From the NCBI GenBank assembly GCA_902826885.1, contig CADEGL010000013.1, positions 17,869-77,887 of the forward strand: a DNA stretch of 60,019 bases. The letters are read 5' to 3'. Origin of the DNA: an uncultured Alphaproteobacteria bacterium (GTDB lineage Bacteria; Pseudomonadota; Alphaproteobacteria; CADEGL01). Numbering within the stretch: the first letter of the stretch is position 1; each line of letters begins with the position of its first letter. Positions 4,711 through 36,026 of the stretch are shown piece after piece. A model generated the notes under the pieces. The model searched no databases. It saw only the letters and a list, made by a program, of their open reading frames with translations, and had not been told where the DNA came from. A program made the translations under genes and the position numbers.

Positions 4711-7446
<2,736 letters not shown>

Positions 7447-7615
7447 CGCGATCACACCAGCCCGGTATACGTCAGTCAAATAAACGCATTATTCGGGCAA
7501 GATGAGCCAACGGCGAAACGGGCGCAATCGCCATCGCGCTCGAATGCGCTGGCAGGGGGCATAAACCGGCAAAGAATTTAAGCCTAAAACAGCCAGCGCT
7601 GCCTTCGGCATTGGC

Positions 7616-16467: not shown

Positions 16468-17847
16468 TTATTGAACGGACGTGTTGCTGCGCACAAACGT
16501 CAGGTAAGGCAGCCGGTCCAGGTAATAGGCCAGAACCAAGACCGCAGCGGCAAAAGACGTGAGCGCCGACAAGAAGTAACCGTAACCGTAATACGGGAAG
16601 CCCAGATGGAGCGTCATCAACGTGAAGCCCACGTTGGTGCCGAGTAAAACTGCATAGACCAGGAGCATCGGTTTCCGCAGATCGAAATAAGCCAGGAAAA
16701 CCGCCAGGCTGATAGTCAGGGCGTGGAAGAACGAGCCCAGCATGCCGATGCGCAGCATGCCGAGCTGCGACGCCGGCAGGCCGAACGAGGCGATGAAACG
16801 CGGCGCCAGGACGATGGCCAGGAAGGTTACGCTGCCCTGCAGCACCACGAGGTTGCGCAGGCCCCTCAACACGATCGACACGAGGCCGCGCTGGTTTTCC
16901 TCGATCTGGGCGAAAGTCGCATGGCGCTGAATATCGCGATAGAAACGCAGATAGCGCTCGAAGAAACTGGTTTCCACTGAGACGATGAAGCCCGCGATGG
17001 CAGGGACCACGGTCAGGTAGGCCAGGAACATGGCCGTGTCGTAATCGGGATACGAGATGAAACCGCTGACGCGCAGATCACGTTCGGGAGCGAACCACAT
17101 GACCCACTTGTCGGCCCAGATGGCCAGGTTCAGCACCAGCCCCGCGGCCGACAGCTCCCAAAAGCGCCGGAAGTAAGACAAGAAGGCGAAGGGCCGCTCG
17201 ACCCGGTACGGGTATTCGGACAAGAGCCGGGCGGCGAGCGCGAACAGGATGACGGCCAAACCGATCGTGAAGCCTAGCAACAAACCCGCGGCGCCCCAGG
17301 CTGGCGCGAGCAGGAGCGCCGCCACGCCCGCCGTCGCCATGCCGATGAAGAAGGCAAAGGTAATGGCGGCATAATCCTTGAGCGCGGTCAAAAAGATGCC
17401 AACCAACCAGACCCCCGTCACCACCATGTAATTGGCGACGGCCAGAAGCTGCATCGACGGTTCGGTGTCGATGTAGAGGAAGTAGAAACCGGCCACGACC
17501 GGGAACTGCGCCACGCACAGGATGCCGAGCGCGCCCAGAAACATGCCGACCACGCCGTCGACCTTCTTCAGGAATATTTGGTCCGCGAGATACCGCGTCG
17601 CGACCATCAGCACGGGTCCGGTACCGACCAAAGAGAAAGCGAAGTTGTAGATCACAACCAGCCGGAACGTGTTCAACTCCTCGATCGCCATCGAGGGCTC
17701 GGCCACGAGCGAAATACCCGCCAGCGACAGAACGGTGAACACCCAAGGGCCGGCCGAAACCAGCGCGGAGTGGGCGTAACCTTGAAGAATGCCGAGAAGA
17801 TCGTCCCGGCGCGCCAGCTTACGCAGTGCGAAGCCGATGCCCGCCAT
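16468..17847 (-). CDS. pelG: PelG, Pel polysaccharide inner membrane transporter
   Basis: A 459-residue polytopic membrane protein with about twelve hydrophobic segments. The N-terminus MAGIGFALRKLARRDDLLG is the typical PelG opening, followed by SALVSAGPWVFTVLSL. PelG is the MOP-family-like component that, with PelD, PelE and PelF, forms the inner membrane synthesis and transport complex. The frame is open to 17925 but only the ATG at 17847 gives the family N-terminus. It is the last gene of the pelD-led operon, 4 nt after pelF. Confidence 0.95.
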   Translation of the reverse strand: MAGIGFALRKLARRDDLLGILQGYAHSALVSAGPWVFTVLSLAGISLVAEPSMAIEELNTFRLVVIYNFAFSLVGTGPVLMVATRYLADQIFLKKVDGVVGMFLGALGILCVAQFPVVAGFYFLYIDTEPSMQLLAVANYMVVTGVWLVGIFLTALKDYAAITFAFFIGMATAGVAALLLAPAWGAAGLLLGFTIGLAVILFALAARLLSEYPYRVERPFAFLSYFRRFWELSAAGLVLNLAIWADKWVMWFAPERDLRVSGFISYPDYDTAMFLAYLTVVPAIAGFIVSVETSFFERYLRFYRDIQRHATFAQIEENQRGLVSIVLRGLRNLVVLQGSVTFLAIVLAPRFIASFGLPASQLGMLRIGMLGSFFHALTISLAVFLAYFDLRKPMLLVYAVLLGTNVGFTLMTLHLGFPYYGYGYFLSALTSFAAAVLVLAYYLDRLPYLTFVRSNTSVQ

Positions 17848-17851
17848 CGCC

Positions 17852-19387
17852 CTACTCCGCCGCTTTCGCGGCCGGCGCCGCATCGGGCATGGCGCGCAGC
17901 TCGTCGTACAGCGCGCCGTAGACACGCACCTGATCGACCTTATCGTAATAGCTACGCACGCGCTCGCGCATGGCCGCGCTGCATGAGAGATACCATTCGC
18001 GGTCGTTCAAAAGCGGCACACACGCGTCCGCCGTGGCCTTGGGGTTGGACAAGGCGGTCACGGCGCCGGCCGCGCCCAACCTAGGTGTCTCGCTGCTGCG
18101 CCCCATGATCAGTTCGCGGCAGGCGCCTACGTCGGTCGCCACGCTAGGGATGCCGCCGGCGCCGGCCTCGAGGATCACGAGCGGCATGCCCTCGGAAATA
18201 CTGGTCAGCACCTGCACGTCGATTTGGCCCAGGATGTCGTCCAGCTTCACGCGGCCGGTGAAGGTGATGGTCGAGCCGAGATTCATCTGCGCGACCATCT
18301 CGCGGCATTCTCGCGCATACTCCTCGTCCTCGTCGTCGGGCCCAATAATGCTCGCGCGCAGGTCGGGCACGCTGTCGCGCATCATCCCGCAGGCGCGAAT
18401 GAAGGTCTTGATATCCTTGATGGGGACAACGCGGCCGATCAGCGCCACGTGCGGCGGCGCGCCGCCGTCTCGGGGCGCCGCGCCCGGCGCCCGCACCTTT
18501 TCGTAACGCGCGAGGTCTATGCCGTTGGGGATGATGGACAGCTTTTCGCGCGGCGCGCCGTCGTCGAGCTGAAACTGCTGATTGCCTTCGTAGAGCGTGA
18601 CAATCTTCCGGCAGGCGCCATAGCAGGCGCGTGAATAGCTGGCGAAGGTATCGATCCACATGTCCTTCAGGCTGCGCTTCCAGATGTTGATCTGGAGACC
18701 TTCGGTTGACGCCTCCGACAACCAATCCGCCATGGCGATCTCGATACGGCGCTCATTGGTGTAGATACCGTGCTCGGTCACGATCGAAGGCCGTCCGGTC
18801 TCGACATGAGCGCGCGCGGCGAACAGACCGGCATAGCCGGTCGATACCGTGTGATAAACGCGGGCGGGCGGCATCTCGGCCAGGATGACCGAGAACAGGC
18901 CGCTGACGAGTGCGCGCCAGGACCAGAAATAATCGAGGAACGAACTTTCCGGATGGCTCGCCTCGTACATGCGGACCAGCATGTCCCACGCCAGCGGCGA
19001 GTTGAGCAGGAGGTCCCGGCCGATCGTGCCGCGATGGGGCGCCAGCAGCGCCATGACGGCGGCCACGTCGTCGAGCCCGCCCTTGGGCGACTGCAACCGC
19101 TCCAGCGGCGCTTCCAGCCTGTCGAACAGATGCGTGGCGCCTCGCATGCGCGGCGCGCCCAGCGGCATTTCCTGGATATAGATGTGGGTCAGCCCGCTGA
19201 CATTGGCGGGAAGCTGATAGCGCAGCTTGCGCTCTTCCTGCTTAGGCAGCAGCGAGACCAGATGGAACCGCAGGTGGGGATAGGACTGGATCAGGTCGTG
19301 CGCCCAGGACGACACGCCCCCCGCGACATACGGGTAGGTGCCTTCCAGGATCAGACAGATGTCAGGCGTTTCCCCGTCCGCGGCCAT
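17852..19387 (-). CDS. pelF: PelF, Pel glycosyltransferase (GT4)
   Basis: A 511-residue cytosolic GT-B glycosyltransferase. The N-terminal DICLILEGTYPYVAGGVSSW is the PelF signature with the Gly-rich loop; the C-terminal nucleotide-sugar site reads SEGMPLVILEAGAGGIPSVA with the E-x7-E-type motif. PelF polymerises the amino-sugar chain from UDP-activated precursors at the inner face of the membrane. The gene follows pelC by 10 nt and precedes pelG by 4 nt, so the trio is co-translated. Confidence 0.95.
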   Translation of the reverse strand: MAADGETPDICLILEGTYPYVAGGVSSWAHDLIQSYPHLRFHLVSLLPKQEERKLRYQLPANVSGLTHIYIQEMPLGAPRMRGATHLFDRLEAPLERLQSPKGGLDDVAAVMALLAPHRGTIGRDLLLNSPLAWDMLVRMYEASHPESSFLDYFWSWRALVSGLFSVILAEMPPARVYHTVSTGYAGLFAARAHVETGRPSIVTEHGIYTNERRIEIAMADWLSEASTEGLQINIWKRSLKDMWIDTFASYSRACYGACRKIVTLYEGNQQFQLDDGAPREKLSIIPNGIDLARYEKVRAPGAAPRDGGAPPHVALIGRVVPIKDIKTFIRACGMMRDSVPDLRASIIGPDDEDEEYARECREMVAQMNLGSTITFTGRVKLDDILGQIDVQVLTSISEGMPLVILEAGAGGIPSVATDVGACRELIMGRSSETPRLGAAGAVTALSNPKATADACVPLLNDREWYLSCSAAMRERVRSYYDKVDQVRVYGALYDELRAMPDAAPAAKAAE

Positions 19388-19397
19388 CGGCGTTCTC

Positions 19398-19973
19398 TTA
19401 TTGGGTTCCAGCGGCCAGGTATTGCACCATCAGCGCCGCGACGCTCTGCGCCGTCTCGCTCAGACTGCCGCGCTGGAGAAAACCACCGCCGATGCTGGAG
19501 CGCGTGGTTGCCCACATCACCGTGCCGTCGGCCCGCACCAGCCGCGCCGTGACACTGACCGTCGGCTCCTCTTTCAGCCCATGCTGATAGCGGTATTCCG
19601 ACACGCTGCCGATCAGCACCGCATCGACGCCCAGCGCCTTGGCCGCGGCGCCCGCGGCGGTGGCCTCTCCCAATTGGGACAGGTCGATGCGCGCTTCCGA
19701 GGCGCGGCGGCGGGCCTCGGTTTCCTCCATCAGCTTGAACAGGTTGCGAGCATAAAGTTCGCTGGCCGTCATCTGGGCCATGATGATGCCGGCGTTGGGA
19801 TCGGTGGAGAGATTTTCGAACGGCAGGATGGCCATGGTCATGCCCCGCTGAGGGGGCGCCGCCGCATTGATATAGAAGGGACTGGGCACGCCAGCGCAGG
19901 CGCCCAGGAGAAGAAGCAGCAGAGCGGCGGCGCCCTCACGCCAGCCGCCCGTTCGTCTCGTTTCACCCTTCAC
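19398..19973 (-). CDS. pelC: PelC, outer membrane lipoprotein of the Pel export channel
   Basis: GTG start at 19973 with AAGGGAGG eight bases upstream. The N-terminus is a lipoprotein signal (LLLLLLGAC, Cys26 as lipidation site). The mature 165 residues match PelC: ILPFENLSTDP, MTASELYARN, DAVLIGSVSEYRY, and SVTARLVRADGTVMW. In Pseudomonas PelC makes a dodecameric funnel under the PelB barrel. It sits between the PelB barrel gene and pelF, as expected for the export module. Confidence 0.93.
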   Translation of the reverse strand: MKGETRRTGGWREGAAALLLLLLGACAGVPSPFYINAAAPPQRGMTMAILPFENLSTDPNAGIIMAQMTASELYARNLFKLMEETEARRRASEARIDLSQLGEATAAGAAAKALGVDAVLIGSVSEYRYQHGLKEEPTVSVTARLVRADGTVMWATTRSSIGGGFLQRGSLSETAQSVAALMVQYLAAGTQ

Positions 19974-20033
19974 GCCGTGGCCTCCCTTTCAATCATATCC
20001 AATCTAGCGCGGCGGATCGGCGGCCGCCTCGTC

Positions 20034-21659
20034 TCAGAATCGCGTCAGAAGATAGAGTCCGTACCGGTTCACGATGTCTCCAGAACCGCGGCTCGTGGCC
20101 TTGGAATACAGGTAGTTCGCGCCGAATTCGAAGTCCGCCGTGGGCTCGTAAGACAATTCGCCGGTGAAGCGCGGACCCTTGGACTGTAGGTCCAAGCGGT
20201 CGAACTGGTAGCCGCCGGATACCGTGTAGCGCATGTAGTCGGTCACGAAGCCCGAGATCGTCGCCAGCGCTGAATGGATCTCGCGGCTGGTGATCGGCAG
20301 CGGCGAATACGCCTGGCCCTCGGAGTTGAAGAAGCTCTTGGTGCCGAACAGATACTCCGCGTCGATGTTGTAGGTCAGGTTGACCAGCGGCCGCGCCTGG
20401 ATCAGCGCATAGGTCAGATCAGCAATGGGTGCGACCGAATTGGTCACGTCGGAAATGCCCTTCACGCCATACCGATTGGCGGCCAGGAACAGCGAGCCCA
20501 CCAGCCGCTCCTCCTGGTCGAGGGCGCGCGAGTACTGGGCCTCCAGCCGGTCGCGCCGGCCATCGTTAGCCATGCCTTCAACATATTCCCAATAGGCGCG
20601 GTGGTATTCACCGATAAGGGCCATACGCTCGCTGTCCTGCCGCTTCTCGATGCGCGCGCTTGGACCCGCGGTGCCGGCGCCGGCCAGGATGCCGCCGCGC
20701 ACGAACAACCCCTCTTCATCGAAGTTCTGGCCAACATACACCTCCGCGCGCTGGCGCCAGCCCTGGAACGGACCCGCGTAGCCGTCGAGCTTCTGCACGT
20801 CCGGCGACCAGACCTCGCGAATTTCGTAATCGAACCCCGCCACGGTGCGCGAAGTGGGCTCGAACCAGCCCTGCTGGCGCGTGATGTATTGGGTATCCGC
20901 CGTGGAAATCACCTGCTTCGCGAAATCGACCCGGTATTGTGGGCCCCGGTCGTGCCGCGTCTGGGCTTGGGCCTGGATCACGTCCGCTTGGCCAGGCAAC
21001 AGCGCCAATGCGCGGTCATATTGCTCCAAGGCGCTCTGCCAATTGCCCAGCCGCTGCTCAATATCGGCAAAAAGGAGCGTCGGCTGCACATCCTTCGGAT
21101 TTTCGGCGGCCAGCTTTTCAGCATCCGGCCGTGCCGCCAGCGGTCCCTGGCTCTGCGCCTTGAGCTCGACCTCCAGCAACGCCAAGCGCTTATCCGTCTC
21201 GGGCGCAATGATCTCCTCTTGGCCCGCGCCCGTCATGACGATACGGATCTGCCGATCCTTGATCTCGATATCGTGAGTCACATCGCGCGACGCGCGCAGG
21301 AGGATCGTGTCATAGCCCTGTGTCGCGTTTTCCAGCCAGCCGTCCGTGTTGTCGGCCAGATCGACCAGCGTCGGCGCGCTTACCTCGTGCGGAAAGCGCA
21401 GCACGATCTCGCGCCCATCGGTCGAATAGTCGACGTTGGCCGATTCCGGCAGATCGATCGTGATGATGACCCGGTTAGCCTCGGTCTTGGTGGTGATGTG
21501 CAAGTCGCCAGCCGCCTGGGCCAGCCCCATCGACGGAGCGAACGTGGGCGAATCGGCGGCCAAAGCCACGCCTCCGGCGCACCCGGCGGCGCCCAGCGCC
21601 GCCGAGAACATCAGGGCGCGCAGGAGCGCGCTACTGGCTCTTGAGGACGCGTCGGGCAT
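20034..21659 (-). CDS. pelB: PelB C-terminal part as a separate outer membrane beta-barrel protein
   Basis: A 541-residue exported protein. Residues 1-35 form a signal peptide (LMFSAALGAAGCAGGVALAA). Residues about 50-145 are beta-rich and AMIN-like (DLHITTKTEANRVIITIDLP), not part of classical PelB. Residues about 175-235 carry one or two TPR-like helices (NWQSALEQYDRALALLPGQ). The rest alternates like a porin barrel and ends in YGLYLLTRF, the terminal aromatic typical of outer membrane proteins. In Pseudomonas this barrel is fused to the TPR part in one PelB. Its ATG overlaps the 3' end of the TPR gene by 29 nt, so translation is coupled. Confidence 0.88.
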   Translation of the reverse strand: MPDASSRASSALLRALMFSAALGAAGCAGGVALAADSPTFAPSMGLAQAAGDLHITTKTEANRVIITIDLPESANVDYSTDGREIVLRFPHEVSAPTLVDLADNTDGWLENATQGYDTILLRASRDVTHDIEIKDRQIRIVMTGAGQEEIIAPETDKRLALLEVELKAQSQGPLAARPDAEKLAAENPKDVQPTLLFADIEQRLGNWQSALEQYDRALALLPGQADVIQAQAQTRHDRGPQYRVDFAKQVISTADTQYITRQQGWFEPTSRTVAGFDYEIREVWSPDVQKLDGYAGPFQGWRQRAEVYVGQNFDEEGLFVRGGILAGAGTAGPSARIEKRQDSERMALIGEYHRAYWEYVEGMANDGRRDRLEAQYSRALDQEERLVGSLFLAANRYGVKGISDVTNSVAPIADLTYALIQARPLVNLTYNIDAEYLFGTKSFFNSEGQAYSPLPITSREIHSALATISGFVTDYMRYTVSGGYQFDRLDLQSKGPRFTGELSYEPTADFEFGANYLYSKATSRGSGDIVNRYGLYLLTRF

Positions 21660-24600
21660 AATCGTAGGACTTATTCTGCATCAGCGCGGTCACCATGTCC
21701 GCGCGTAAATCTTTATCGTTCGGGCGTTCGGCGCGCAGCGCCTCGAAGGCCTTCAGCGCCTCCTGCGTGTGGCCCAGCCGCTGCAGAATGTTGGCACGCA
21801 CCAGACGCATCTGGAAGCTGGGCTTGGCGACCGCATCGATGGCCTTCAGCGCGCGGGTATAGCTGGCCACCGCGGCGCCCTGCTGGCCGAGCGAGGAAAG
21901 CGTTTCCCCGAGCACGAATGCGGCCTCGTAATCGTCGGCCGGCCCGTGCGCGAAGTAGCGCGTGAGATAAAGCCGCGAGTCCTGATAGCGCTGGGCCGAC
22001 GCCGCGGCGATACCGGCGCCCCGCAGCGCGTCGCGGTCGTCCGGCGCCTGCGACAGGATGCGCCGATAGGCATCCAGCGCGGGCAGGGCTAGCCCAGCCT
22101 CGGACGCCGCGCGCGCCAGTTTGCGCAGAACGATGGGGCTGGTCTCTTTGGACAGGCGCTGGTCAAGCACCTGGGTCAGCTTGTCGTTACGCTTCAGGGA
22201 GGCAAGCGCCTGGATGTAAGCCGCGAAGACGGCGGCATCCATGGACGCCACCGGCCCCGAATCCTCGGCGATCTGGACCGCGCGCGCCGAGGCGCCGTCA
22301 TTGGCCAGCACCTCGAGCCAGGCCCCTTTCTCCGCGCCGCGTGCCTCGCGCGCGCGCTTCTCGAGCCAGTCGAGCTGAGCCGGCGCCGGGCGAGGCCCCC
22401 ATAGATAGAGAAGCTGTTGAACCTCCGGGCTGTCAGGCGGCTGGTCCTGGGCGAGCGAAAAGAAAATCTTTTCCGCCTGCGGCTTGCGGTTCGCGGCCAG
22501 CAAGCGGAAGGCACCGTCGCGACGCTCCGCTCGCGGCAAGTCCGCCCGGTCGAGACGCTTGGTCAGGAAATCGAGGTATTGCCCCTCCTGCCCAGCCTTC
22601 TTCGCCGCTTCCTCATACGCATAGATCCATTCGCCGCCATAGGCCTCGGCCTGTGCCTGAAGATAGGGCAGCGCAGCCGCCGCACCGCCGAGGTCAATCA
22701 GCGCGTAGATGCGATCCTCGCGCTCCTTGCGCGATAGATCGGGACGCGCCAATTCGGCCTTGAGGAAAGCGGCCAACTCGTCGTTGCGCTTGGCCTTCTT
22801 GGCCGCGTCGACATAGGTCCAAAACCAATTGCCCCGCTGGGTCCGCGCGAGGTTGGCCAACAGCGGCAGCGCCACGTCATAGGCGCCCGCGGTGACGAGC
22901 GCCGCCGCCACATCGCCGCGCTCGGTTGCCGTGAGAGAGGGATCGTTGATGCGCTTGGTGGCGTAGGCCACCAGCTCATCGCGCACGGGCGCGCCAGCCG
23001 CATACGCCTTGGCCAGCGCGGTCAGGTAAGTTGCCGCGATCTCGCGGTCGCCCGGCAACAGCGGACGCAAAAGCGGCAAAGCCTCCGCCGCACGTCCGAT
23101 ATCGGTCAGCGCTTGCGCGTAGATAGCCGTGTTGCGAGGCGACGCGGACGCCTTGTAGAGCCGCTCCGCCGCCGTGAAGGCCAGCTGGGTCTGCTTGGCG
23201 TCGCGCGCGGCGTAAAATAGGTCGTACAAGGTCTGCTCATCCAGCCCTCGCGCCTCATGAAGCCAATCGCGCACCGCGACGGTCTGGCCCGCGGCCGTCG
23301 CGACCAAAGCCCAGGCCGCGTCGGCGCGTGGCGATCTGCGCTGTAGACGCAGTTTGTCGAATAGAGCTGCATCAGCGGCCGAAGCGCCAAGCTGGATGAA
23401 CAACGAGGCCAGCGATGGAAGATCTCCGTCCGGCATTCGCGCATCTTCCGCCAAAGCCGCCGCCCGCCGGCGCGCGGCGGCTTTCTGGCCGTGGGTAATC
23501 TCGTAGCGCGCCAAGGCAATGGCTTCGCGCGGCGATAGCGACGGCATGGCCTGGGCGCGACGCACCCACATCTCGGCCTTCGCCGCGTCACCTTGCGCCA
23601 ACGCCAGCTCGGCCGCCACCATCGGCGCATCGATGAAGATGTCGTCGCCCACGGCGCGCGCCAGCGCGGCGGCGCGCGTCACGTCGCCGCCCATCAGCGC
23701 CAGTTCGATCAGGCCGGTGATGGTGGCGGGCTGCAATGCGTTGGGATTCACCCGTTCGAGGCCTTTAAAAGCGCGGTCACGGTCGCCGGATTCCACAGCC
23801 AGTTCGACATACGGCACATACATCGACTGCGGCAGGTGGCCTTCGTCATCCAGCTTCACCAGGCGCGCAAGCGCTTGGGTCGAGCGCCCGGCCGCGCGCT
23901 CGACCTCGATGACGTCGCCGAGCAGTTTTGGATCGTCCGAGGCGCGCGCCTCGAACGGCTCGATGAGATGCAGGGCGATGTCGGGCCGCCCGCGGACCAC
24001 GAACAGGCTGGTGATGGCGCCGATGGCGGAAGGGTCGGTGTTCCCTTCCAAGAAGGCCGCCGCGTATTTCTGCGCATCGTCCGCCCGATTCAGGTCCAAC
24101 AGGAGCGAACAAAGCAGTTCGATGCCGTCGTAATCGAGCGCCTTGGGGCCTTGGGCCGCGCGTTTCTCGAGCACAACCACCGCGTTGCGGTATTCGCCGC
24201 GTCCGGCCAGGAGCTTGCCGTATTCCGCCACTTCGAACGGCGTGGCGTCGGGGCGTTGGATCAGCCGCGCGAGGGTCGCCATCTGGCCGTCGCTGTCGGC
24301 ACGGTCGCGCTGCTCGTCCAGCACCTCGCGCAGACTTTCGCTATCGTCCTTCAGCTTGTCGATCTTCTGCAGTGTCTCCATGCGCCGGGAGATCTCTTGA
24401 TCCTGCGAATACGCGTCGGCCAGCCGGCGCAAGATCTCCGCGTTGTCGGGATAGGCGGCTTCGTAGCGCTGGAGCAAGCCGATGGCGTGCTTGATTTGCC
24501 CGAAATAGATGTAAACGTCGGCCAGCGGCACGACGATCGAAAGCGGCAGCGATCCGCCCTCAAGCTGCGCCTCATAGGCATCGCGCGCGGCGGCGAACTC

Positions 24601-24786
24601 GCGTCCCCGATGGTAGATCTCGGCCAGTTCCCGCTCGCGCGGGATGAGCAAATAAGCCACTACGCCTCCGATGAGCACGAGGCCGGCCACCACGGCGTAG
24701 AAGGGCCGCGCCAGGCGGTTGCGGGCTTTGCGGCGGGCGATGCGCGGGCGCGGCCGAACGGACGTGGCGGATCCAGAATCCGTCAC
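21631..24786 (-). CDS. pelB: PelB N-terminal part as a separate membrane-anchored TPR protein
   Basis: A 1051-residue protein with a basic cytosolic tail, one transmembrane helix (about residues 29-48, FYAVVAGLVLIGGVVAYLLI), and then about 1000 residues of helical repeats that read as TPRs (for example HTQEALKAFEALRAERPNDK at the end). This is the periplasmic scaffold of PelB, which in Pseudomonas binds PelA and guides polymer to the barrel. Here it lacks the barrel, which follows as the next gene. The start is GTG 24786. A gap of 120 nt separates it from the hydrolase gene upstream. Confidence 0.88.
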   Translation of the reverse strand: MTDSGSATSVRPRPRIARRKARNRLARPFYAVVAGLVLIGGVVAYLLIPRERELAEIYHRGREFAAARDAYEAQLEGGSLPLSIVVPLADVYIYFGQIKHAIGLLQRYEAAYPDNAEILRRLADAYSQDQEISRRMETLQKIDKLKDDSESLREVLDEQRDRADSDGQMATLARLIQRPDATPFEVAEYGKLLAGRGEYRNAVVVLEKRAAQGPKALDYDGIELLCSLLLDLNRADDAQKYAAAFLEGNTDPSAIGAITSLFVVRGRPDIALHLIEPFEARASDDPKLLGDVIEVERAAGRSTQALARLVKLDDEGHLPQSMYVPYVELAVESGDRDRAFKGLERVNPNALQPATITGLIELALMGGDVTRAAALARAVGDDIFIDAPMVAAELALAQGDAAKAEMWVRRAQAMPSLSPREAIALARYEITHGQKAAARRRAAALAEDARMPDGDLPSLASLFIQLGASAADAALFDKLRLQRRSPRADAAWALVATAAGQTVAVRDWLHEARGLDEQTLYDLFYAARDAKQTQLAFTAAERLYKASASPRNTAIYAQALTDIGRAAEALPLLRPLLPGDREIAATYLTALAKAYAAGAPVRDELVAYATKRINDPSLTATERGDVAAALVTAGAYDVALPLLANLARTQRGNWFWTYVDAAKKAKRNDELAAFLKAELARPDLSRKEREDRIYALIDLGGAAAALPYLQAQAEAYGGEWIYAYEEAAKKAGQEGQYLDFLTKRLDRADLPRAERRDGAFRLLAANRKPQAEKIFFSLAQDQPPDSPEVQQLLYLWGPRPAPAQLDWLEKRAREARGAEKGAWLEVLANDGASARAVQIAEDSGPVASMDAAVFAAYIQALASLKRNDKLTQVLDQRLSKETSPIVLRKLARAASEAGLALPALDAYRRILSQAPDDRDALRGAGIAAASAQRYQDSRLYLTRYFAHGPADDYEAAFVLGETLSSLGQQGAAVASYTRALKAIDAVAKPSFQMRLVRANILQRLGHTQEALKAFEALRAERPNDKDLRADMVTALMQNKSYDYARRVLKSQ

Positions 24787-24906
24787 GCCGTCACCCGCGC
24801 CAGCGACTGTCCTTGTTCTGCCAAGGCCCCATTCCTTGGGTTTAGACTAATTCGTTACACAATATATATGGAAAATCCGATCTAGGGGCTGCCCATGGGT
24901 GTTTGC
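24787..24906 (-). promoter_or_regulatory. AT-rich gap upstream of pelB, possible internal promoter
   Basis: This 120-nt gap between the PelA-type hydrolase gene and the PelB TPR gene contains the only AT-rich patch in the operon (CATATATATTGTGTAACGAA read on the minus strand, about 24855-24875). It could hold a -10 element, but no matching -35 is clear. An internal promoter is inference. Confidence 0.3.
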
Positions 24907-25770
24907 CTAGGGAGTTGGCTCTTTGATTAGGCGGTCCAGGTCAATGGTCGCCACGTAGGGATTGAATCCGTTGGCGCGCTGCTCCTTGTAAATGCGCTGA
25001 ATGCCGGCTGGATCGGTCGGCGACCAATAGTCCAAGGTCATCACGCGAAGCTCGGGCCGCCGCTTCTGGGCGTCCTTCAGGAACTTCACCTGGTCAAGGT
25101 AGGTCGTGCGATCGACCAGCTTGTAGGTCTTGGTCTTGAAGTCGTAATCGGCATAGACCGATTCTCCCAGCTCGAAATCGATATCGCGTTCGACCTTGGG
25201 CAACAGCGGATAGGCGCGGTTCATCATGATTGGAATAGCCGGATAGTTGCGCCGGATAGCGCGGACAAGCTGGGCGGCCGCGTCGGTGATGCCTTTGTAT
25301 TTTTTTGGCTGCGTCTGCTCCAGGTAGACGGGATTATCCAGTGTGTCGAGAAAGACGCCATCGAAACCGCGGCGCAGGAGCATCGGCACCAGTTCCTCGA
25401 CCACGAGCGCGGTCCAGCGCGGATCGCGAAGGTCGACGTAGAAGCTGCCCTTCCAGTTCGGATTCTCCTCACCAAGAATGCCCCAGCGCTTCACCTTGGC
25501 GAACCACGACCGGTGCGATTCCACCTCGCCCACGCTGATATAACCGAGCAGCACCTTGCCGCGCTCCGCCAACGGACGGAGCGGCGGGTGATTTTCGCTG
25601 TCGAGCACCAGAAGCGTGTACGGGTCGAACGCTTCCGGCGGCTCCTTATCGGCATAGTAGACGACCCAAGGCTTATCGCCCACACGCTGGCCCCAGCTTT
25701 CTGCCGCCGAGGCCGTGTGAAGGGGTGCCGAAAGAATCATGAGCGTAAGAATTATAAAACGGCAAATCAT
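24907..25770 (-). CDS. pelA: PelA glycoside hydrolase domain as a free-standing protein (GH114-like)
   Basis: A 287-residue secreted protein with signal peptide MICRFIILTLMILSAPLHTASA. The mature domain matches the hydrolase domain of PelA, an endo-alpha-1,4-N-acetylgalactosaminidase fold: LVLDSE, GYISVGEVESHR with the likely catalytic Glu82, and FDGVFLDTLDN with Asp142. It ends soon after the barrel, with no deacetylase attached. The ATG at 25770 overlaps the pelE stop as ATGA; the longer frame upstream is antisense-like. It would trim or cut Pel in the periplasm. Confidence 0.9.
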   Translation of the reverse strand: MICRFIILTLMILSAPLHTASAAESWGQRVGDKPWVVYYADKEPPEAFDPYTLLVLDSENHPPLRPLAERGKVLLGYISVGEVESHRSWFAKVKRWGILGEENPNWKGSFYVDLRDPRWTALVVEELVPMLLRRGFDGVFLDTLDNPVYLEQTQPKKYKGITDAAAQLVRAIRRNYPAIPIMMNRAYPLLPKVERDIDFELGESVYADYDFKTKTYKLVDRTTYLDQVKFLKDAQKRRPELRVMTLDYWSPTDPAGIQRIYKEQRANGFNPYVATIDLDRLIKEPTP

Positions 25771-26849
25771 GCAGCTTTCTCCGCCAGCCCCTCGCCGGCC
25801 CACAGCCGCACCATTTCGACTACGCGGATGGGGAATTGGTCGAGTTGCGCGACATCGCCGAGATGCGAATCGGCGAAGCGGCGAAGGTCGGAATAACGTC
25901 GAAGATGAAACAGACATTCCATATACCAAGGCGCCATGTTGGAAGTGAACAACCCGTCGCGCCGGCAGCGTTCCAGCACGGCAGCCGCGACATTGTAACG
26001 CTTGCGGCGAATGAGAAGGCGCGCCACGGCCAGGCGGACCGGCCCGTCGTCCGGCACAAGCTTGAGATATTTGAGGTAGGTGTCGAGCGCCGTCCGGCGG
26101 CTGCGCCGTTCGCGCAAGGGGTCGAGCAAGCCGGTCGCCGCATAGTCGTCGTTGAACTGGGCCACGGCCTTCAGCGCCTCGGGTGAATCCGGCGCGGCCC
26201 GGGCTGCCTTGTCCAGGGCAGTCGCGCGCTTCATGAAGTTGTTCTCGATCGTCGTCATCGACGTGGCCGCCTGGACGCGGATCGCGTTGTCCGTGTCGCG
26301 CAAGGCCATGCGCAGAGCCGGCGCGAAAACCGGGTTGAAGCCGCGCGTCATCACCGCGATGGCGATCTGCTTCTGCGCGCGCGTACCGTGCGACAGGATG
26401 TCGAACAAGGGGCCGATGCTGACCTCGCCCTCCTGTCCCGCGACGCGGTCGAGCAGCGAGGCCAAGCGGCGCTCTTCCTCGACCTCGTCCTCTGGAAACA
26501 AAGCGCGGTACCAGGCCTCGAAGCCCTGCGCGTCATCGGGGAATACCGCCCGCAAGATGAAAACCAACAGACTACCGGCGGCCCCCAACGGACCGAACAC
26601 GGCCGTGGTGATGGCCAGCAGCGCGAACAGAGGCGTCGACCGCCCGCCCGCGCGCCGATGCGCGAAGGCTGCGATAGCCAATAGCGCGACGACGACCAAA
26701 TGGCCCGCGAACACCAGAGCGACAGGCGCCATGCGCTCCAGCACCAAGATCGCGAGCAAACCTTCAACCGCGAACGAAAGGAAAGCGGCCGCTCCCGCGG
26801 CCAGCTCGATCCGGGACCGCGGTGCGACTTCAGCTTGCGTCGCGTTCAC
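25767..26849 (-). CDS. pelE: PelE, inner membrane TPR protein of the Pel synthase complex
   Basis: I place the start at GTG 26849, which has GGGAGG six bases upstream and lies 20 nt inside the end of pelD. The 360-residue product has two or three hydrophobic helices at the N-terminus (SFAVEGLLAILVL, LVFAGHLVVVALLAIAAF, FALLAITTAVFGPLGAA), an acidic linker, then HEAT/TPR-like helices (LDTYLKYLKLVPDDGPVRLA). This is the PelE arrangement; PelE binds PelD and activates PelF. The overlaps with pelD and the hydrolase gene imply coupled translation. Confidence 0.88.
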   Translation of the reverse strand: MNATQAEVAPRSRIELAAGAAAFLSFAVEGLLAILVLERMAPVALVFAGHLVVVALLAIAAFAHRRAGGRSTPLFALLAITTAVFGPLGAAGSLLVFILRAVFPDDAQGFEAWYRALFPEDEVEEERRLASLLDRVAGQEGEVSIGPLFDILSHGTRAQKQIAIAVMTRGFNPVFAPALRMALRDTDNAIRVQAATSMTTIENNFMKRATALDKAARAAPDSPEALKAVAQFNDDYAATGLLDPLRERRSRRTALDTYLKYLKLVPDDGPVRLAVARLLIRRKRYNVAAAVLERCRRDGLFTSNMAPWYMECLFHLRRYSDLRRFADSHLGDVAQLDQFPIRVVEMVRLWAGEGLAEKAA

Positions 26850-28254
26850 GCTTCGCCTCCCGCCGCTCGCTTTGATAGAGGGACTGGGTCGTGCTTTCAA
26901 AGCGCGCTTCGGGTGCTGCCTCGCGCAACTGCGTCCGCAGGGAGGTGCCCAACCGCTCCGCGGCTGCCGTCGCCGCGGCGGCAGCCATGTTGGGCAGCAG
27001 AACCACGTATGCGCCGGCCATTTCTTGTGAGAACGGCATCGCCGAGGCGCCAAGCGCCAAGCGCACCGCGGCGCTGACCGCACCGTGGATGGCGGCGCGC
27101 TCGTCGTCGGACAACTCCGCCAAGTTGGTGAACTGCAAACGGATCGCCGACAGGTCGAACCCCGCCCGCCGGGCCAGGGAGACCAGAAAATACTGCTGCG
27201 GTTCGAAATACTGCCACGGCATCACGTCGCGGCCCACGCTCAGCGCGGCTTCCGACGCTTGCGCCGCCTGGGCTACGGCCTTGGCATAGGCCGTGCCGAT
27301 CCAAACCGAAAGCGCGCGAAAATTCTCGACCGTGCTGACGTTGAGGTCGAGCAGCTCCAGCTTTTCGATCTTGAGCATACCGATGACGCCGCCGGTCTCG
27401 CCGTTGAGCAGAGGCCCGGCCAGGACGCCTTCCCTACTCAGTGCGGCCTCGTCGGCTTCGTTCGTGATGCAAATGACGCGTTTCTGATCGACAACCTCCT
27501 GATAGAGGGGCGAATGGGCATTGAAGGTTCGCGCGTAGCGATCCTTCGGCCCCCAGCCATCCTGAATGGCGGCCTCCAGCACCTCGTCGTTCAGCAAGAA
27601 GAGCGAGAATTTTTCCGGCGTCACGATGGAGCGGACCACATCGACAATGGCCAACAGCACCTCACCGGGATCGCTGCGCTCGATCAGGCGCGCCGTCTCA
27701 TAGGTGGTCAGGAAGGTGCGCAATTGGCCGACGACACGCACTTCCAGATTCTCCTTCACGCGCACCAGCCGGCGGTAAGCGTTGGAGAGTTGGGCCGAGC
27801 GCGCCCTCAACTCCTCGTAGCGGACCGACAGCTCTTCATGAGCGCGGCGATGGCGGGCACGGATTTCGCCCAGCGTCACGGCGGCCGCGAACCACAGGAC
27901 GGGCAGCTTCACCACGTCGAAAAGATGATCGTAGAAATCCTCGCCGACGCTCTGCGGTGGGATCGCTCCCATAAGAAATGCCAGGGTACAGCCGGCCGCG
28001 GCCACCATTCCCTCGGCCGTGCCGTACTGCACGGAAACCAGGAGGATCAGCAGCCAGAATGGATGGGGATGCGCGTCGCGGAAACGGGTCCCGTCCAACA
28101 CGAAGATATCGAGCGCCAGCGCGATAGCCAGGAACAGCACGATCTCGATGATCGCCGAGCGGCGAAAGCCGAAGAGAGTGGGGTTAGCCGGCCGCGCGGC
28201 AGCCGAGAGTTCGGGAGGCGCATCCGTCGCGGTGCCTTGGTCGTTGATGGTCAT
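26830..28254 (-). CDS. pelD: PelD, GAF/degenerate GGDEF regulator of Pel synthesis
   Basis: A 474-residue inner membrane protein with three to four N-terminal helices (about 33-53, 66-75, 80-98, 116-128), a coiled linker (135-175), a GAF domain (about 185-330) and a degenerate GGDEF domain (about 340-455). In Pseudomonas the last domain binds c-di-GMP through an RxxD site and switches on synthesis. Here the GGDEF-equivalent turn is MAGAY (412-416), and the position of RxxD reads ASAM (403-406); no RxxD occurs in the domain. It heads the pelDE-A-B-B-C-F-G operon and is divergent from the REC-Hpt gene. Confidence 0.9.
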   Translation of the reverse strand: MTINDQGTATDAPPELSAAARPANPTLFGFRRSAIIEIVLFLAIALALDIFVLDGTRFRDAHPHPFWLLILLVSVQYGTAEGMVAAAGCTLAFLMGAIPPQSVGEDFYDHLFDVVKLPVLWFAAAVTLGEIRARHRRAHEELSVRYEELRARSAQLSNAYRRLVRVKENLEVRVVGQLRTFLTTYETARLIERSDPGEVLLAIVDVVRSIVTPEKFSLFLLNDEVLEAAIQDGWGPKDRYARTFNAHSPLYQEVVDQKRVICITNEADEAALSREGVLAGPLLNGETGGVIGMLKIEKLELLDLNVSTVENFRALSVWIGTAYAKAVAQAAQASEAALSVGRDVMPWQYFEPQQYFLVSLARRAGFDLSAIRLQFTNLAELSDDERAAIHGAVSAAVRLALGASAMPFSQEMAGAYVVLLPNMAAAAATAAAERLGTSLRTQLREAAPEARFESTTQSLYQSERREAKRERDAS

Positions 28255-28357
28255 CGCTGAAACCGGCCCTCCCCTCTCTCTTGCGTGAGCATATAGACGC
28301 GCAGGAGGAGCGAGAAGCGGCGCTTTCGCCGCATTGAAGGGTCAGGACCGAGGGTTT
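28255..28357. promoter_or_regulatory. Divergent promoter region of the pelD operon and the REC-Hpt gene
   Basis: The gap between the divergent starts must hold the promoters of both units. On the plus strand TATAGA at 28292-28297 could be a -10. AGGAGGAG at 28302-28309 is a strong ribosome binding sequence, followed by a perfect GCGGCG-CTTT-CGCCGC hairpin at 28317-28332 and a TTG at 28334. Boxes for pelD are not clear. Confidence 0.45.
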
Positions 28358-29194
28358 ATGTATGTGAGGCCTTCGCGCCCGCCCGGCATGACCGAGATAT
28401 GGATTTGCATGAGCCCGACGCCCCCTGAAGACCTGGCCAAGACGAAAGGCGCACGCATTCTCCTGGCTGAGGACAGCACAACCAACCGCATGCTGGCCAC
28501 GGCCATCCTGAAAGGGGCCGGCTATCACGTCACGGCGGCGGCGAATGGGCGTGAACTTCTCAACGCTTTGCGCGCCGAGCCGTTCGATCTCGTGCTGATG
28601 GACATCTTCATGCCCGAGATGGATGGACTGCAGGCCACGGCCGCGGTGCGCGCCATGTCCGATGAGCGTGGCAAGATTCCGATCATCGCCATGACAGCCT
28701 ATGCGGTCGAAAGCGACCGCGAGAGTTGCCTGGCCGCCGGCATGAACGACTATGTTTCCAAGCCAATCCACAAGCAGGAACTGCTGCAGACCGTTGGACG
28801 CTGGCTGCTTGAGACCGGGCAAGTCGGCCGCGGCGAACGTCACGAAGCTCAGGAAGAAATCCTGAACCCGGCGGTACTCGATACGCTGGAGGAAGACACC
28901 GGCCACGACACCGCGGTCGAAATCGCTCACGCCTTCGTGATGGAAACGGCGGAGCGACTGGAACAATTGAGACAAGCGGTGGAAAAACAAGACTTCGCGG
29001 CCTTGGAGCGCGAGGCGCTAGCGCTCAAGACCGGCGCGGGCACCTTCGGCGCGACTCGGCTCCAGCGCAGCGCGGAGCAGCTTGAACTGGCTTGCCTCGC
29101 GGGCGACCAAGGACGCGCTCTGGAAGTTGTGCGCGCGCTGCCGAAGATCGCCCTAGCAGCCTGCAAGGCCCTATCGGCGCGTTATCCCCGCTGA
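28358..29194 (+). CDS. Response regulator with receiver and degenerate Hpt domain
   Basis: The receiver domain has the acidic pair EDS, phospho-acceptor Asp82 in [11 protein letters not shown] and the Lys in MNDYVSKPI. The C-terminal part (about 165-270) is an Hpt four-helix domain, but the phospho-acceptor position reads [16 protein letters not shown]: the His of AHALK is Leu221 (codon CTA at 29018). The receiver is intact; the Hpt cannot take part in phosphotransfer by its usual residue. The start may be ATG 28358, ATG 28409 or TTG 28334. It lies inside the Pel locus, divergent from pelD and convergent with the deacetylase gene, so it probably regulates Pel. Confidence 0.88.
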
Positions 29195-29200
29195 CGCCGT

Positions 29201-31519
29201 TCAAGCGCGCGGAACGAAGACCACCTCGACCCGGACATTCTCGATCCCGTGGGCACCTAGGTTGGCGCGCAGCACGCGCTCCACTGGCGTCGCGACCGCC
29301 TCGACCGTTTCCACCTGACGGTCGCCCTGCCACAACACAACGCGATAGCGGCCGGGCTTTGGCACCTTCCATGCCATCTCGCCGTCGCCAAAACCTTGCG
29401 CGGCGAACTCGAAGCGGTCGGTGCCGAGCTTCAGGCCCCAGATGCGCCAACGTGCTTGGATCAGGTAAGGCCGCGGCGCCTCGGACAGCATGTCGAGCCG
29501 CTCGGCCGTCCTGAGGGCGATGACGGGCGCGGGATGCGCGGCGTCCAACGCCACGTAAAGACTACCTTGATGGATGCGTTCGCCGATCACGCCTTCCGAG
29601 CGCGTGTAATCGACCGTTTTCGCCGTGGCGTGGTCAAAACGGATCGTCTGCAGCTCGCCCCGGTTCTCGACACGCCAGCGTCCGCCATCCAACGCGACGA
29701 GACGCGTATCGTAGAAACTGTCGGCGATAGCGGCAAAGCGGCTGGCGTGAACGGGGGTAACCTCCTGCTCGCGCACATAGTTCAGAATATGTTTCAACGC
29801 CTCGAGGCTGGCCGTCCGGTCGGCCGCATAGGGGTGGTAGTAGACGTTGATTGGTTTCACCCGGATCGGCATCTCGGTGTTCCGCAGCGTCTTCTCTAGA
29901 TGGCGGAAACCGAAAAATCGGTTGGACCACAGTTCGGTATAAGTGTTCTCGTTGCTGGTTGACGCATAGATCTGGCGTTGCTTGCCCACCGGCACGCCGA
30001 TAGGCGCGACCCAGGCATAAGACGGAAACTCGGGATCGAAACGTGTGTCGCCGCCGTTGATATTGCGCATACCCGCGGCGCGCGTGGCGGCAATCACCTC
30101 TTCCGCGGGCGAGGTGTTGCCCGACCATTGGTAGAGCATGACTGACTTGCCGCCTTCGGAGAACCGCTCGATGTAATCCTTGGCACCCTTGGTTTCGTTC
30201 TGCACGTCGTACGGCTTGACCGCATAGGCACGCGGCACGCGGTATCCCTTCAAGGATTCGCTCTTGAGTGCCGGATCGTCATCGTCATTGTTGACGCCCT
30301 CGCCCGCATTCCAACTCGACATTTGCCGCTTGTCGCGCGCGCGCAACGATCCCAGCAACCCGCCCAAGGACTGAGATGGACGCGGCGGATAGTATTTCAG
30401 GAACGGCCTTTCCTTCTCCGCCGTCCAATCGACGAAAAAGCCCCAATCGAAGGGATGGCTATAGCTGTGGTTCGCCATCTCGACATTCGGCAGCACGAAG
30501 ACACGACGCGCCACGCCCTGCATGGCCTCATCGCCGTACCAAGCAGGGTCGAGATCGGCCGCGATGGGCGCGACCGAGACCGGTAGCTCCGGGTAACCCT
30601 CGATGATCTCCTTGATCAGGACGTCCATCGAAAGCGTGGGCGGGTCCTGGGGATAGCGCTCGATCAGCGTGTAATTGCGCCAGCCGTCGCCGTCGATATG
30701 GCTGTAATACATGCGGCGGCCAGACAAGGTGGTGGTGTCTGGCTTAGGCAGGTCGTCGGTCCCGAAAGTGATGCGAAAGAATTCGAACGGGTTGATGAAC
30801 CAGGATCGCTTCTGCCGGTCATTGTTGAGATAGCGCGCGTATTCGGACGCCGCATAGCCGCCGGTCGGCGAGGTGACGATCAGATCCGCCTCGGTCGACG
30901 GATCGCCGTTGCGGCTGACGGAAAGGTGAATCTTGGCGCTGTTGCCCGCGACTTGAATACGGTCGAATTCGGGCAGGACGCCGGGCATCGGATATTCGAA
31001 ACCGCACAATTCCTTGTCGTAGACGGAAACCCGATAATCGTAGGTCAGATAGACGAATTCACCCGTCGAGCGCAGACCCATGAGACCGAGAAAGCGGTTG
31101 AGGCGTTCGCGCGAAAACGGTTGGCCATAGCGATTCACCTCGATACCGAACGAACCGACGACCACGAATTTCTTGCCCGAACGAAGCACGCTCTCCGCCC
31201 AGCTGATGTAGGCGTCCGGGTCCGGCACCTGTAGGCCGCGGAAGAACGTGAGAACGCCGCGCACATCGCCCATTTCCGACAAGGGCGGCAGAGGCCGGTG
31301 GATATCATGATAGCGCACGGTGAGCCCGAGATGGTTGAGCGGCATCTCGGCGAACTGATGGATGGAGCTAAGGCGAACCTTGGTGGCGGCGCCGTCATAG
31401 AGCGCGAGGATCACGCGCGGAACGGTCGCTTCGGCGGCGCGCGCTGGCACCGAAACAAGGGTGGCCCACGCGAGAATTACGATGGCCAGAATGCTGCGTA
31501 TGATCGAAATTGGCTTCAC
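29201..31519 (-). CDS. pelA: PelA deacetylase domain as a free-standing protein
   Basis: A 772-residue exported protein with signal peptide (SILAIVILAWATLVSVPARA). Residues about 35-260 match the Rossmann-like reductase-type domain of PelA; residues about 268-620 are the CE4-like deacetylase with SHIDGDGW (Asp276, Asp278) and NHSYSHPF (His351, His355) as metal and catalytic residues; the last 150 residues are beta-rich. The N-terminal hydrolase of Pseudomonas PelA is absent and is encoded elsewhere in the locus. GTG 31519 overlaps the stop of the epimerase gene as GTGA. It removes acetyl groups from the polymer in the periplasm. Confidence 0.9.
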   Translation of the reverse strand: MKPISIIRSILAIVILAWATLVSVPARAAEATVPRVILALYDGAATKVRLSSIHQFAEMPLNHLGLTVRYHDIHRPLPPLSEMGDVRGVLTFFRGLQVPDPDAYISWAESVLRSGKKFVVVGSFGIEVNRYGQPFSRERLNRFLGLMGLRSTGEFVYLTYDYRVSVYDKELCGFEYPMPGVLPEFDRIQVAGNSAKIHLSVSRNGDPSTEADLIVTSPTGGYAASEYARYLNNDRQKRSWFINPFEFFRITFGTDDLPKPDTTTLSGRRMYYSHIDGDGWRNYTLIERYPQDPPTLSMDVLIKEIIEGYPELPVSVAPIAADLDPAWYGDEAMQGVARRVFVLPNVEMANHSYSHPFDWGFFVDWTAEKERPFLKYYPPRPSQSLGGLLGSLRARDKRQMSSWNAGEGVNNDDDDPALKSESLKGYRVPRAYAVKPYDVQNETKGAKDYIERFSEGGKSVMLYQWSGNTSPAEEVIAATRAAGMRNINGGDTRFDPEFPSYAWVAPIGVPVGKQRQIYASTSNENTYTELWSNRFFGFRHLEKTLRNTEMPIRVKPINVYYHPYAADRTASLEALKHILNYVREQEVTPVHASRFAAIADSFYDTRLVALDGGRWRVENRGELQTIRFDHATAKTVDYTRSEGVIGERIHQGSLYVALDAAHPAPVIALRTAERLDMLSEAPRPYLIQARWRIWGLKLGTDRFEFAAQGFGDGEMAWKVPKPGRYRVVLWQGDRQVETVEAVATPVERVLRANLGAHGIENVRVEVVFVPRA

Positions 31520-32454
31520 CCCGCCGGTGCCAAGGAATCGAGGGTGACCTTGAGCCCGTCGCGCAGGAGCGTCTCCGCACGGACGCCCAGTTCCGCCGCA
31601 GCCTTGGCGCCATTACCGAGCGAAATACGGATATCTCCCAAACGAGCCTCGCCGAACTTGATCCGCGGCTCCTTGCCGCGCAGCTCGAACACCAGTTCCG
31701 CCAATTGCTTCACCGACGTCTGCTTGCCGGTGCAGACATTGTAGGCTTGGGCCGGATGCTTACCGGCGTTCGCCATGGCGGCCAAGAGTATCCGCACGAC
31801 GTCACCGACATAGATGAAGTCGCGCGTCTGGCCCCCGTCGCCGAAAATGGTCAGTTCCTGGCCGCGAATGACGCGGTCGGCGAAGATCGAGATCACGCCG
31901 GAATAGGGCGAGCGGGGATCCTGCCGTGGCCCGTAGACGTTGAAGAAGCGCAGGCCAATGGCGGGCACCTTGTGAACCAGCCATGCGACCCGCGCATGCA
32001 ACTCACAGCCCAGCTTATCCGCGCCGTAGGCCGAGATCGGCCGCACGGAGGAGGATTCTGTCAGGGGCATTTCGGGATTGTCGCCGAACACCGCCGCGGA
32101 CGAGGCGTAAACCACCGGCACGGGCGCGCCGGCCGGGCCTTTGCGGGCGGAATCGAAGACGTGGATCGCGCCACCCAAATTTACACGGTGCGTCCCCACC
32201 CAATCCTGGTTGCCGCGCTCGACCGATGCGATGGCGGCCAAGTGGAAACAGCCGTCCATCCCTGTCATCGCCGCGCGCACGGTGTCCGCGTCCGCCACGT
32301 CGCCGATCACGATCTCGGCTGCCTTCGGCGCGTTCTTGCGATGTCCGGTGGACAGATCGTCGAGAATACGCACCTGGTCGCCCCGTGCCACAAGCGCATC
32401 CGCCAAGTGCGAACCGATAAACCCGCAGCCGCCCGTGACGAGGTAGGTCGCCAT
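31516..32454 (-). CDS. pelX: NAD-dependent UDP-sugar 4-epimerase, PelX-like
   Basis: A 312-residue extended SDR with the NAD motif TGGCGFIG, DLSTGH, the Ser of YASSAAVFG and the catalytic YGADK (Y-x3-K), then LRFFNVYGPRQDP, which is the GalE/WbpP-type pattern. The ATG at 32454 has GGAGGG upstream. Its coupling to the deacetylase gene points to the Pel pathway: in some pseudomonads PelX interconverts UDP-GlcNAc and UDP-GalNAc for Pel. A general GalE-type role is the alternative. Confidence 0.85.
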   Translation of the reverse strand: MATYLVTGGCGFIGSHLADALVARGDQVRILDDLSTGHRKNAPKAAEIVIGDVADADTVRAAMTGMDGCFHLAAIASVERGNQDWVGTHRVNLGGAIHVFDSARKGPAGAPVPVVYASSAAVFGDNPEMPLTESSSVRPISAYGADKLGCELHARVAWLVHKVPAIGLRFFNVYGPRQDPRSPYSGVISIFADRVIRGQELTIFGDGGQTRDFIYVGDVVRILLAAMANAGKHPAQAYNVCTGKQTSVKQLAELVFELRGKEPRIKFGEARLGDIRISLGNGAKAAAELGVRAETLLRDGLKVTLDSLAPAG

Positions 32455-32578
32455 TTTTCCCTCCGTTTCGATCGACTGTCCGGAAGCACGGCAAATCTGT
32501 CAACCGAAGGAGTTGTACAGGGCTGCCCTTTCCGTTAAAGCCCGGCGAGGTTTCGTGCCCACCATGGAGCATTCTTCA

Positions 32579-35387: not shown

Positions 35388-36026
35388 ATGATGAGGTCGG
35401 ATCGTGCAGCCAACGGGGCCAGCGTAAGCAGGATGTCGCGCCATCGTGCGAACCGATTCCTATCGGCGCCCTGCGGCTCTTTGAGCCGGCGGGACAGCCT
35501 GCTCGTTTTGTCCGCGGGCATCGCGGCGTGTTTCTTCGGCGGCATATCCGTGGCGCGCGCCACAAACGCCAGTGCGTCGGCCCCGCAAAACCTTCCGCGC
35601 CCGACCGGCACGATCGTGCTGTCGGTCAAAGGCCAGATTTCCAACACCAACGCGCCGGGCCGCGCCGACTTCGATCGTGCCATGCTGGAAGCACTGGGTA
35701 TTTCCAGTATCGAAGCCACCTCGCCATGGAGCGACGGACGCCGGAAATTCCACGGTGTTTTAGCCCGCGACGTGCTGTTGGCCGTGGGCGCCCAGGGACA
35801 GGTGGTTACGGCCACCGGGCAGGATGACTACTCGGTCGACATCCCTGCTTCCGACTTCATGCGCTATCCGGTCCTGCTGGCACTCCAGATGGACGGCAAG
35901 TACCTGCAACTGCGCAACCAGGGCCCGGTGCTGATTGTCTATCCCCGCGACGATTACACGGAACTGGCCACGCCTACGCTGACGCGCAAGTCGGTGGGAA
36001 TGCTGCGCGAGATCACTGTCCGATGA
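35388..36026 (+). CDS. Periplasmic SUOX-fold (molybdopterin oxidoreductase-like) sensor partner
   Basis: A 212-residue exported protein: an Arg-rich start, a hydrophobic segment (SLLVLSAGIAACFFGGISVA) and a mature domain of the oxidoreductase molybdopterin-binding type (TIVLSVKGQISNTN, RKFHGVLARDVLLAVGA, QDDYSVDIPASDF, GPVLIVYPRDD). The mature part has no cysteine, so the cofactor ligand of true sulfite oxidase-type enzymes is missing. Its stop overlaps the start of the hybrid kinase (ATGA). The likely role is ligand sensing in the periplasm for that kinase. Alternative starts at 35391 or 35433 are possible. Confidence 0.8.
   Translation: MMRSDRAANGASVSRMSRHRANRFLSAPCGSLSRRDSLLVLSAGIAACFFGGISVARATNASASAPQNLPRPTGTIVLSVKGQISNTNAPGRADFDRAMLEALGISSIEATSPWSDGRRKFHGVLARDVLLAVGAQGQVVTATGQDDYSVDIPASDFMRYPVLLALQMDGKYLQLRNQGPVLIVYPRDDYTELATPTLTRKSVGMLREITVR

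Follow-up and report, generated by a model that had tools for sequence, protein, structure and literature searches.

A complete split-type Pel locus with a rearranged gene order and a probable loss or replacement of c-di-GMP control in an alphaproteobacterium

Results

Organization of the locus

Pel is a widespread matrix polymer that is known mainly from the fused-gene system of Pseudomonas. In the stretch of DNA analyzed here (60,019 nucleotides in length, referred to as the window), a complete Pel locus occupies positions 16468–32454. All ten components, namely PelX, the deacetylase part of PelA (PelADA), PelD, PelE, the hydrolase part of PelA (PelAH), the TPR and barrel parts of PelB, PelC, PelF, and PelG, were identified by profile, solved-structure, or fold matches (Table 1), which bears out the first-pass annotation, where every core Pel function had been considered identifiable. 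Ten ORFs follow each other on the minus strand, with a single plus-strand ORF placed between PelADA and PelD, and two co-directional units, X-ADA and D-E-AH-TPR-barrel-C-F-G, flank this divergent gene that encodes a REC-Hpt protein. Every pel ORF of the window is full length, neighboring genes show stop–start overlaps, and each split half carries a signal or an anchor. Searches of Pfam and NCBIfam name PelF and PelG outright and find GH114 in PelAH, GAF in PelD, TPRs in both PelB parts, and an SDR epimerase in PelX; the probability that ten such matches would be adjacent by chance is negligible.

Table 1. Features of the pel locus and of a related kinase gene, in window coordinates
Feature	Position	Strand	Description and main matches
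PelX	31516..32454	-	UDP-GlcNAc/GalNAc C4-epimerase-type SDR; best PDB match 6wjb (1e-68); Epimerase PF01370
PelADA	29201..31519	-	Mixed alpha/beta and CE21 deacetylase portion of PelA without hydrolase domain; own signal peptide
REC-Hpt protein	28334..29194	+	PF00072 (8e-29), PF01627 (1.5e-10); convergent with PelADA, divergent from PelD
Divergent region, pelD/REC-Hpt gene	28255..28333		79 bp, from gene coordinates; presumed to hold both promoters
PelD	26830..28254	-	TM helices, GAF, degenerate GGDEF
PelE	25767..26849	-	Inner-membrane TPR protein; weak TPR/HEAT (Pfam)
PelAH	24907..25770	-	GH114-type hydrolase part of PelA; PF03537 (2.7e-22); own signal peptide
PelB TPR scaffold	21631..24786	-	N-terminal membrane anchor; TPR families (Pfam)
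PelB barrel	20034..21659	-	Signal peptide, N-terminal beta domain, TPRs, outer-membrane barrel
PelC	19398..19973	-	Outer-membrane lipoprotein; lipobox LLGAC
PelF	17852..19387	-	GT4 glycosyltransferase; NF038011 equivalog, 473 bits (cut-off 100)
PelG	16468..17847	-	Inner-membrane flippase-like; PF16933, 422.5 bits (cut-off 29) over 452/452 positions
Hybrid histidine kinase	36023..39943	+	PAS-HisKA-HATPase-REC-REC-Hpt (Pfam); Hpt His intact

Individual components

The structure 6wjb, matched by PelX, is PelX of P. protegens. The stop of the PelX gene overlaps the start of PelADA, whose sole PDB match is PelA (9cgy, 2.2e-51), with residues 35–682 aligned on chain residues 257–832. All seven CE21 catalytic and metal-binding residues are kept in this alignment (equivalents of H526, D528, D530, H600, H604, E723, and H761). 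In PelA, D528 serves as the base, H526 is activating, D530, H600, and H604 are metal ligands, and H761 is the acid, with E723 as its partner (PMC12022489). PelAH corresponds to the endo-alpha-1,4-N-acetylgalactosaminidase domain of PelA; its best PDB matches are likewise PelA structures, 5tcb (1.9e-17) and 5tsy, aligned over chain residues 14–269, and the catalytic Glu is preserved (E218 equivalent, the residue altered in the variant structure 5tsy). The start of PelAH meets the stop of PelE in an ATGA overlap; the true starts are probably 25770 for PelAH, 26849 for PelE, and 17847 for PelG. The signal peptides of PelAH, PelADA, and the barrel, as well as the anchor of the TPR protein, were recognized by reading the sequence. 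Homologues in the position of PelE were found as 17 ORFs of the first survey, and the PelE profile picks out the gene flanked by pelD and pelF in canonical loci of the gamma/beta type. The best matches of PelC are the PelC structures 5t11, 5t10, 9h80 (PelC chain), and 5t0z, with values of 1e-8 to 2e-7.

The genes of the barrel and of the TPR scaffold overlap by ~29 bp in different frames. Single-sequence phmmer searches against the PDB matched no structure of PelB or PelD, and both were reached by folding. The AlphaFold model of the barrel (pLDDT 87.9) has PelB in 9h80, the cryo-EM complex PelBC, as its top match by both programs used, with a Z score of 30.6 over 355 residues at 16% identity, residues 156–541 being superimposed on PelB residues 803–1191. 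A cellulose or PNAG exporter was rejected as the identity of the barrel, with Z scores of 23.6 for BcsC and 24.4 for PgaA against 30.6 for PelB. When better matches to unrelated export systems were sought, the barrel, PelAH, and PelADA all proved closest to Pel proteins. Among the matches listed, the sequence profile of the barrel found TPR proteins only, and at the thresholds used neither the TPR nor the barrel profile reached canonical PelB by sequence. The identity of the TPR scaffold therefore rests on its position and on eight other loci, in which one ORF aligns with the scaffold in its N-terminal half and with the barrel in its C-terminal half.

Distribution of the split genes

PelA and PelB had been described in the first-pass annotation as two genes each, and this is true of the window, where every half has its own export signal and where the genes of PelAH and PelADA are parted by the REC-Hpt gene, PelD, and PelE. 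In the survey, 21 of 385 alphaproteobacterial genomes carry PelG. Both parts of PelA are visible in six other alphaproteobacterial loci of the survey set, and all six encode them as two genes; with the PelAH and PelADA profiles, none of the alphaproteobacterial loci showed a fused PelA. This absence is not a blind spot, since the same profiles find both parts on one ORF (~900–1000 aa) in 12 of 13 canonical gamma/beta-type loci. Two-gene PelA is also present in a further set of loci outside Alphaproteobacteria, including the family of a Magnetococcales genome. Of 51 loci, 43 have a split PelB and eight a fused one, the latter being five acidobacterial loci and three in MAGs that bear the labels Rickettsiales or Alphaproteobacteria. 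Some of the counted loci are near-relatives, so that these counts do not represent independent events; several of the relatives are MAGs of doubtful name, such as ‘Rhizobium sp. Q54’. Two split-type loci of Chromatiales (Gammaproteobacteria) have two tandem PelC-like genes (L120, 4339–5624, and L123, 4397–5838).

The fused genes of Pseudomonas are the one observation that would favor sequencing or assembly errors, with frameshifts breaking a single pelA and a single pelB. The chance of this is next to nil, and the explanation is refuted by the separation of PelAH from PelADA by PelD, PelE, and the regulator, by the signals that each half carries, and by the recurrence of the same splits in dozens of genomes, some of them from isolates of Azospirillum. 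In the PelG tree, all loci with fused PelA (Pseudomonas-type) fall into one clade (SH-aLRT 100), with split PelA opposite, which corresponds to one change; the PelG trees are quick trees of a single protein. From this tree and the locus survey it follows that the splits of PelA and PelB are real but mark a deep branch of Pel rather than this genome.

Gene order in the family

The order X-ADA-[regulator inverted]-D-E-AH-TPR-barrel-C-F-G is found in the family of the window genome, as compared with the usual X-AH-ADA-TPR-barrel-C-D-E-F-G. The order barrel-D-E-F-G was seen in 55 loci and D-E-F-G in four more, and in that set only the window places D-E before the barrel. Two genomes from other genera of the same family share the arrangement. 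In G002, one contig carries X-ADA-[REC-Hpt inverted]-D-E-AH-TPR and a second one C-F-G, and in G004 the locus is spread over three contigs (X-ADA-[REC-Hpt inverted]; D-E-AH-TPR-barrel; barrel-C-F-G). Their proteins are mostly 46–70% identical to those of the window, with 34–40% for the PelB parts. The four PelG proteins of the family form one clade, with SH-aLRT values of 100 in one tree and 99 in the other. Since the rearranged order and the insertion are common to three genera that form a single PelG clade, they are old and stable. The gene order, the inserted REC-Hpt gene, and the loss of RxxD in PelD described below are traits specific to the family. The proposal of a variant Pel machine with a non-canonical order in an alphaproteobacterium is supported by these data; of the unusual features, the order and the inserted regulator are stable, being found in three genera, whereas the splits are no local trait but usual in the Pel loci of Alphaproteobacteria and Magnetococcales and in some others.

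PelD and the c-di-GMP binding site

Most of the best eleven Foldseek matches of the PelD fold are PelD chains, and VIA-align ranks PelD chains level with other chains that carry GAF or GGDEF. On the basis of a profile match to 3ign, a c-di-GMP-binding cyclase (DGC), the RxxD motif of alphaproteobacterial PelD lies on the I-site. In the window, the alignment shows this motif replaced by GASA (residues ~402–405, ~27040–27051), so that PelD lacks the mark of the c-di-GMP receptor mode. The motif is gone in all three family members, being replaced by GSSS in G002 and lost in G004. Of 61 surveyed loci, 44 have RxxD, 10 have another sequence in its place, and seven lack the GGDEF domain altogether; on the tree, the losses of the I-site or of GGDEF amount to at least six changes. 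A search with PF16963 (PelD_GGDEF) was uninformative, giving zero matches in the window genome and in every control alike.

In the seven loci without GGDEF, which belong to the Telmatospirillum group, Dankookia, and Paeniroseomonas, PelD stops after GAF and PelE is directly next (L084, L087, L089, L092, L097, L100, and L106). In loci L054–L057 (Minwuia and Kordiimonadales IMCC3096), the I-site reads SPMV, the barrel ORF is ~750 aa long, and neither parts of PelA nor a separate gene for the TPR scaffold were detected beside the barrel-D-E-F-G block. One GGDEF protein is detectable in the window genome and one in its genus mate, compared with 5–35 in 15 further alphaproteobacteria that have Pel. 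The data do not support a strict link of I-site loss with a small number of GGDEF proteins, as Minwuia-type genomes without RxxD have 7–12 GGDEF proteins.

The inserted REC-Hpt gene

The first-pass annotation had placed a plus-strand regulator between two minus-strand units; the gene is indeed there, but its product is a REC-Hpt protein in which the domain search found no DNA-binding domain. The gene has the same position and orientation in loci L124 and L125, and in G002 it carries a frameshift. The aspartate of REC is present in both pel-locus REC-Hpt proteins whose sequence covers it, while the phosphorylatable histidine of Hpt is changed to leucine in all three genera (Leu229 in the window). 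Along its length, the protein shares 43% identity with the C-terminal tail of the hybrid histidine kinase encoded further along the window, where the Hpt motif reads REAHALK, as compared with REALALK in the pel-locus proteins of the three genera. Judged by this similarity, the REC-Hpt protein is a detached paralogue of the tail of the kinase, and the kinase is a candidate partner.

Short REC-only proteins adjoin pel genes elsewhere in Alphaproteobacteria (L011, 17493–17894; L035, 2548–2946; L040, 5321–5749), so that an association of receiver proteins with split-type Pel may be common. Another hybrid histidine kinase, whose sensor domain is of the MHYT type, is encoded on the minus strand at 4711–7479 of the window, past the genes of a branched-chain amino-acid ABC transporter that come after pelG.

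Discussion

Comparison of the window with known Pel systems reveals the same functions, the same active-site residues of the enzymes, and the same PelBC-type exit through the outer membrane as in pelABCDEFG of P. aeruginosa (with pelX in some pseudomonads). However, PelA and PelB of P. aeruginosa are single proteins encoded in the order A-B-C-D-E-F-G, whereas in the window each of them is split and the genes are reordered. The split-type loci of Azospirillum, Telmatospirillum, Rhodovibrio, and Magnetococcales resemble the window in having separate PelAH and PelADA, as well as separate TPR and barrel genes, but follow the order (X-)AH-ADA-TPR-barrel-C-D-E-F-G, mostly retain RxxD in PelD, and lack the inverted REC-Hpt gene that the window has between ADA and D. 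A search of the literature found no description of split Pel in Azospirillum or Rhodospirillales. In the Gram-positive system (pelDEADAFG with a separate pelAH in Bacillus cereus and streptococci), PelA is also split into hydrolase and deacetylase (PMC7112168), although there is no outer membrane and neither PelB nor PelC, unlike in the window. Fission of pelB in aquatic thermophiles and a rearranged pelA in Nitrosospira are already described as events in the available part of PMC7112194; the loci treated there belong to other lineages, and that part does not describe the combined split of PelA and PelB or the order and regulator of the window.

The general Pel pathway consists of synthesis by PelX, PelF, and PelDEG, modification by PelA, and export by PelBC. 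In the window, PelX would supply UDP-GalNAc for polymerization by PelF, the chain would pass the inner membrane via PelD, PelE, and PelG, and in the periplasm it would be partially deacetylated by PelADA and trimmed by PelAH. From its anchor in the inner membrane, the TPR protein would then hand the polymer to the separate TPR-barrel protein, which would sit within the ring of PelC lipoproteins in the outer membrane. We infer that the product is the Pel polymer (partly deacetylated alpha-1,4-GalNAc), that the pathway is active, that the split halves join into the same export path, and that control by c-di-GMP via PelD has been lost. Taken together, the component matches, the conserved catalytic residues, the full-length ORFs, the gene order shared by the family, the lost I-site, and the single GGDEF protein make it very likely that the locus encodes a complete, working split-type Pel machine in which this control was lost or replaced.

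In P. aeruginosa, PelD has a working RxxD site, and R367, D370, and R402 are required for c-di-GMP binding and for Pel (PMC2170427), whereas PelD of the window has no RxxD. The motif defines a mode of control and not the Pel system as such, because it is absent from streptococcal PelD too; as the latter has no GGDEF domain, the loss of c-di-GMP control has a precedent (PMC7112168). The domain loss in the Telmatospirillum group, Dankookia, and Paeniroseomonas is like that of streptococci, but occurs in Gram-negative bacteria. Control through the I-site of PelD thus appears to be lost in the window, with the REC-Hpt protein as a candidate replacement; c-di-GMP might nevertheless be bound by PelD through other motifs.

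A polymer other than Pel, made by a related but distinct exopolysaccharide system with Pel-like parts, seems quite improbable. The split-type branch of PelG is far from the Pseudomonas type (branch lengths 2.27 and 0.81), and the literature search found no described polymer of a split-type Gram-negative Pel system, yet PelF passes the equivalog cut-off, PelX and both enzyme parts of PelA are kept together with their catalytic residues, and Gram-positive Pel, with a PelA that is likewise split, reacts like Pel (PMC7112168).

Decay of a locus that is still intact by sequence has somewhat more in its favor, but is also unlikely; the c-di-GMP site of PelD would then have been lost because Pel is unused. 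In another genome of the same genus (G001), a deletion of ~9 kb joins a cytochrome c gene to residue 336 of the PelB TPR protein (locus L008 on G001:C10, 6995–10964, corresponding to ~23780–32745 and 20034–21659 of the window), the barrel gene is interrupted by two in-frame stops, and PelADA was found nowhere in the genome, although PelF and PelG are still 96% identical. The deletion and the stops mean that Pel is dispensable in this close relative, and the scarcity of GGDEF proteins in the window genome also fits decay. In the window, however, the ORFs are all full length with their catalytic residues kept, and the loss of RxxD is common to three genera in which gene order, enzymes, and REC-Hpt gene have all been retained.

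A working Pel machine is therefore the reading that we prefer, in which the REC-Hpt protein would possibly stand in for the lost I-site control of PelD. We can speculate that in this family a phosphorelay rather than c-di-GMP gates the export of Pel, with the signal of the REC-pseudoHpt protein being read by PelD or its GAF domain, but such a specific scheme is tentative and on balance doubtful.

The deep second branch of Pel, with two genes for each multidomain protein, tells which links between domains Pel can do without, and it suggests that the PelA and PelB fusions of Pseudomonas may be derived. The repeated loss of the c-di-GMP site of PelD among Gram-negative Pel loci, together with a signaling gene fixed in one locus, makes Pel control independent of c-di-GMP testable outside streptococci.
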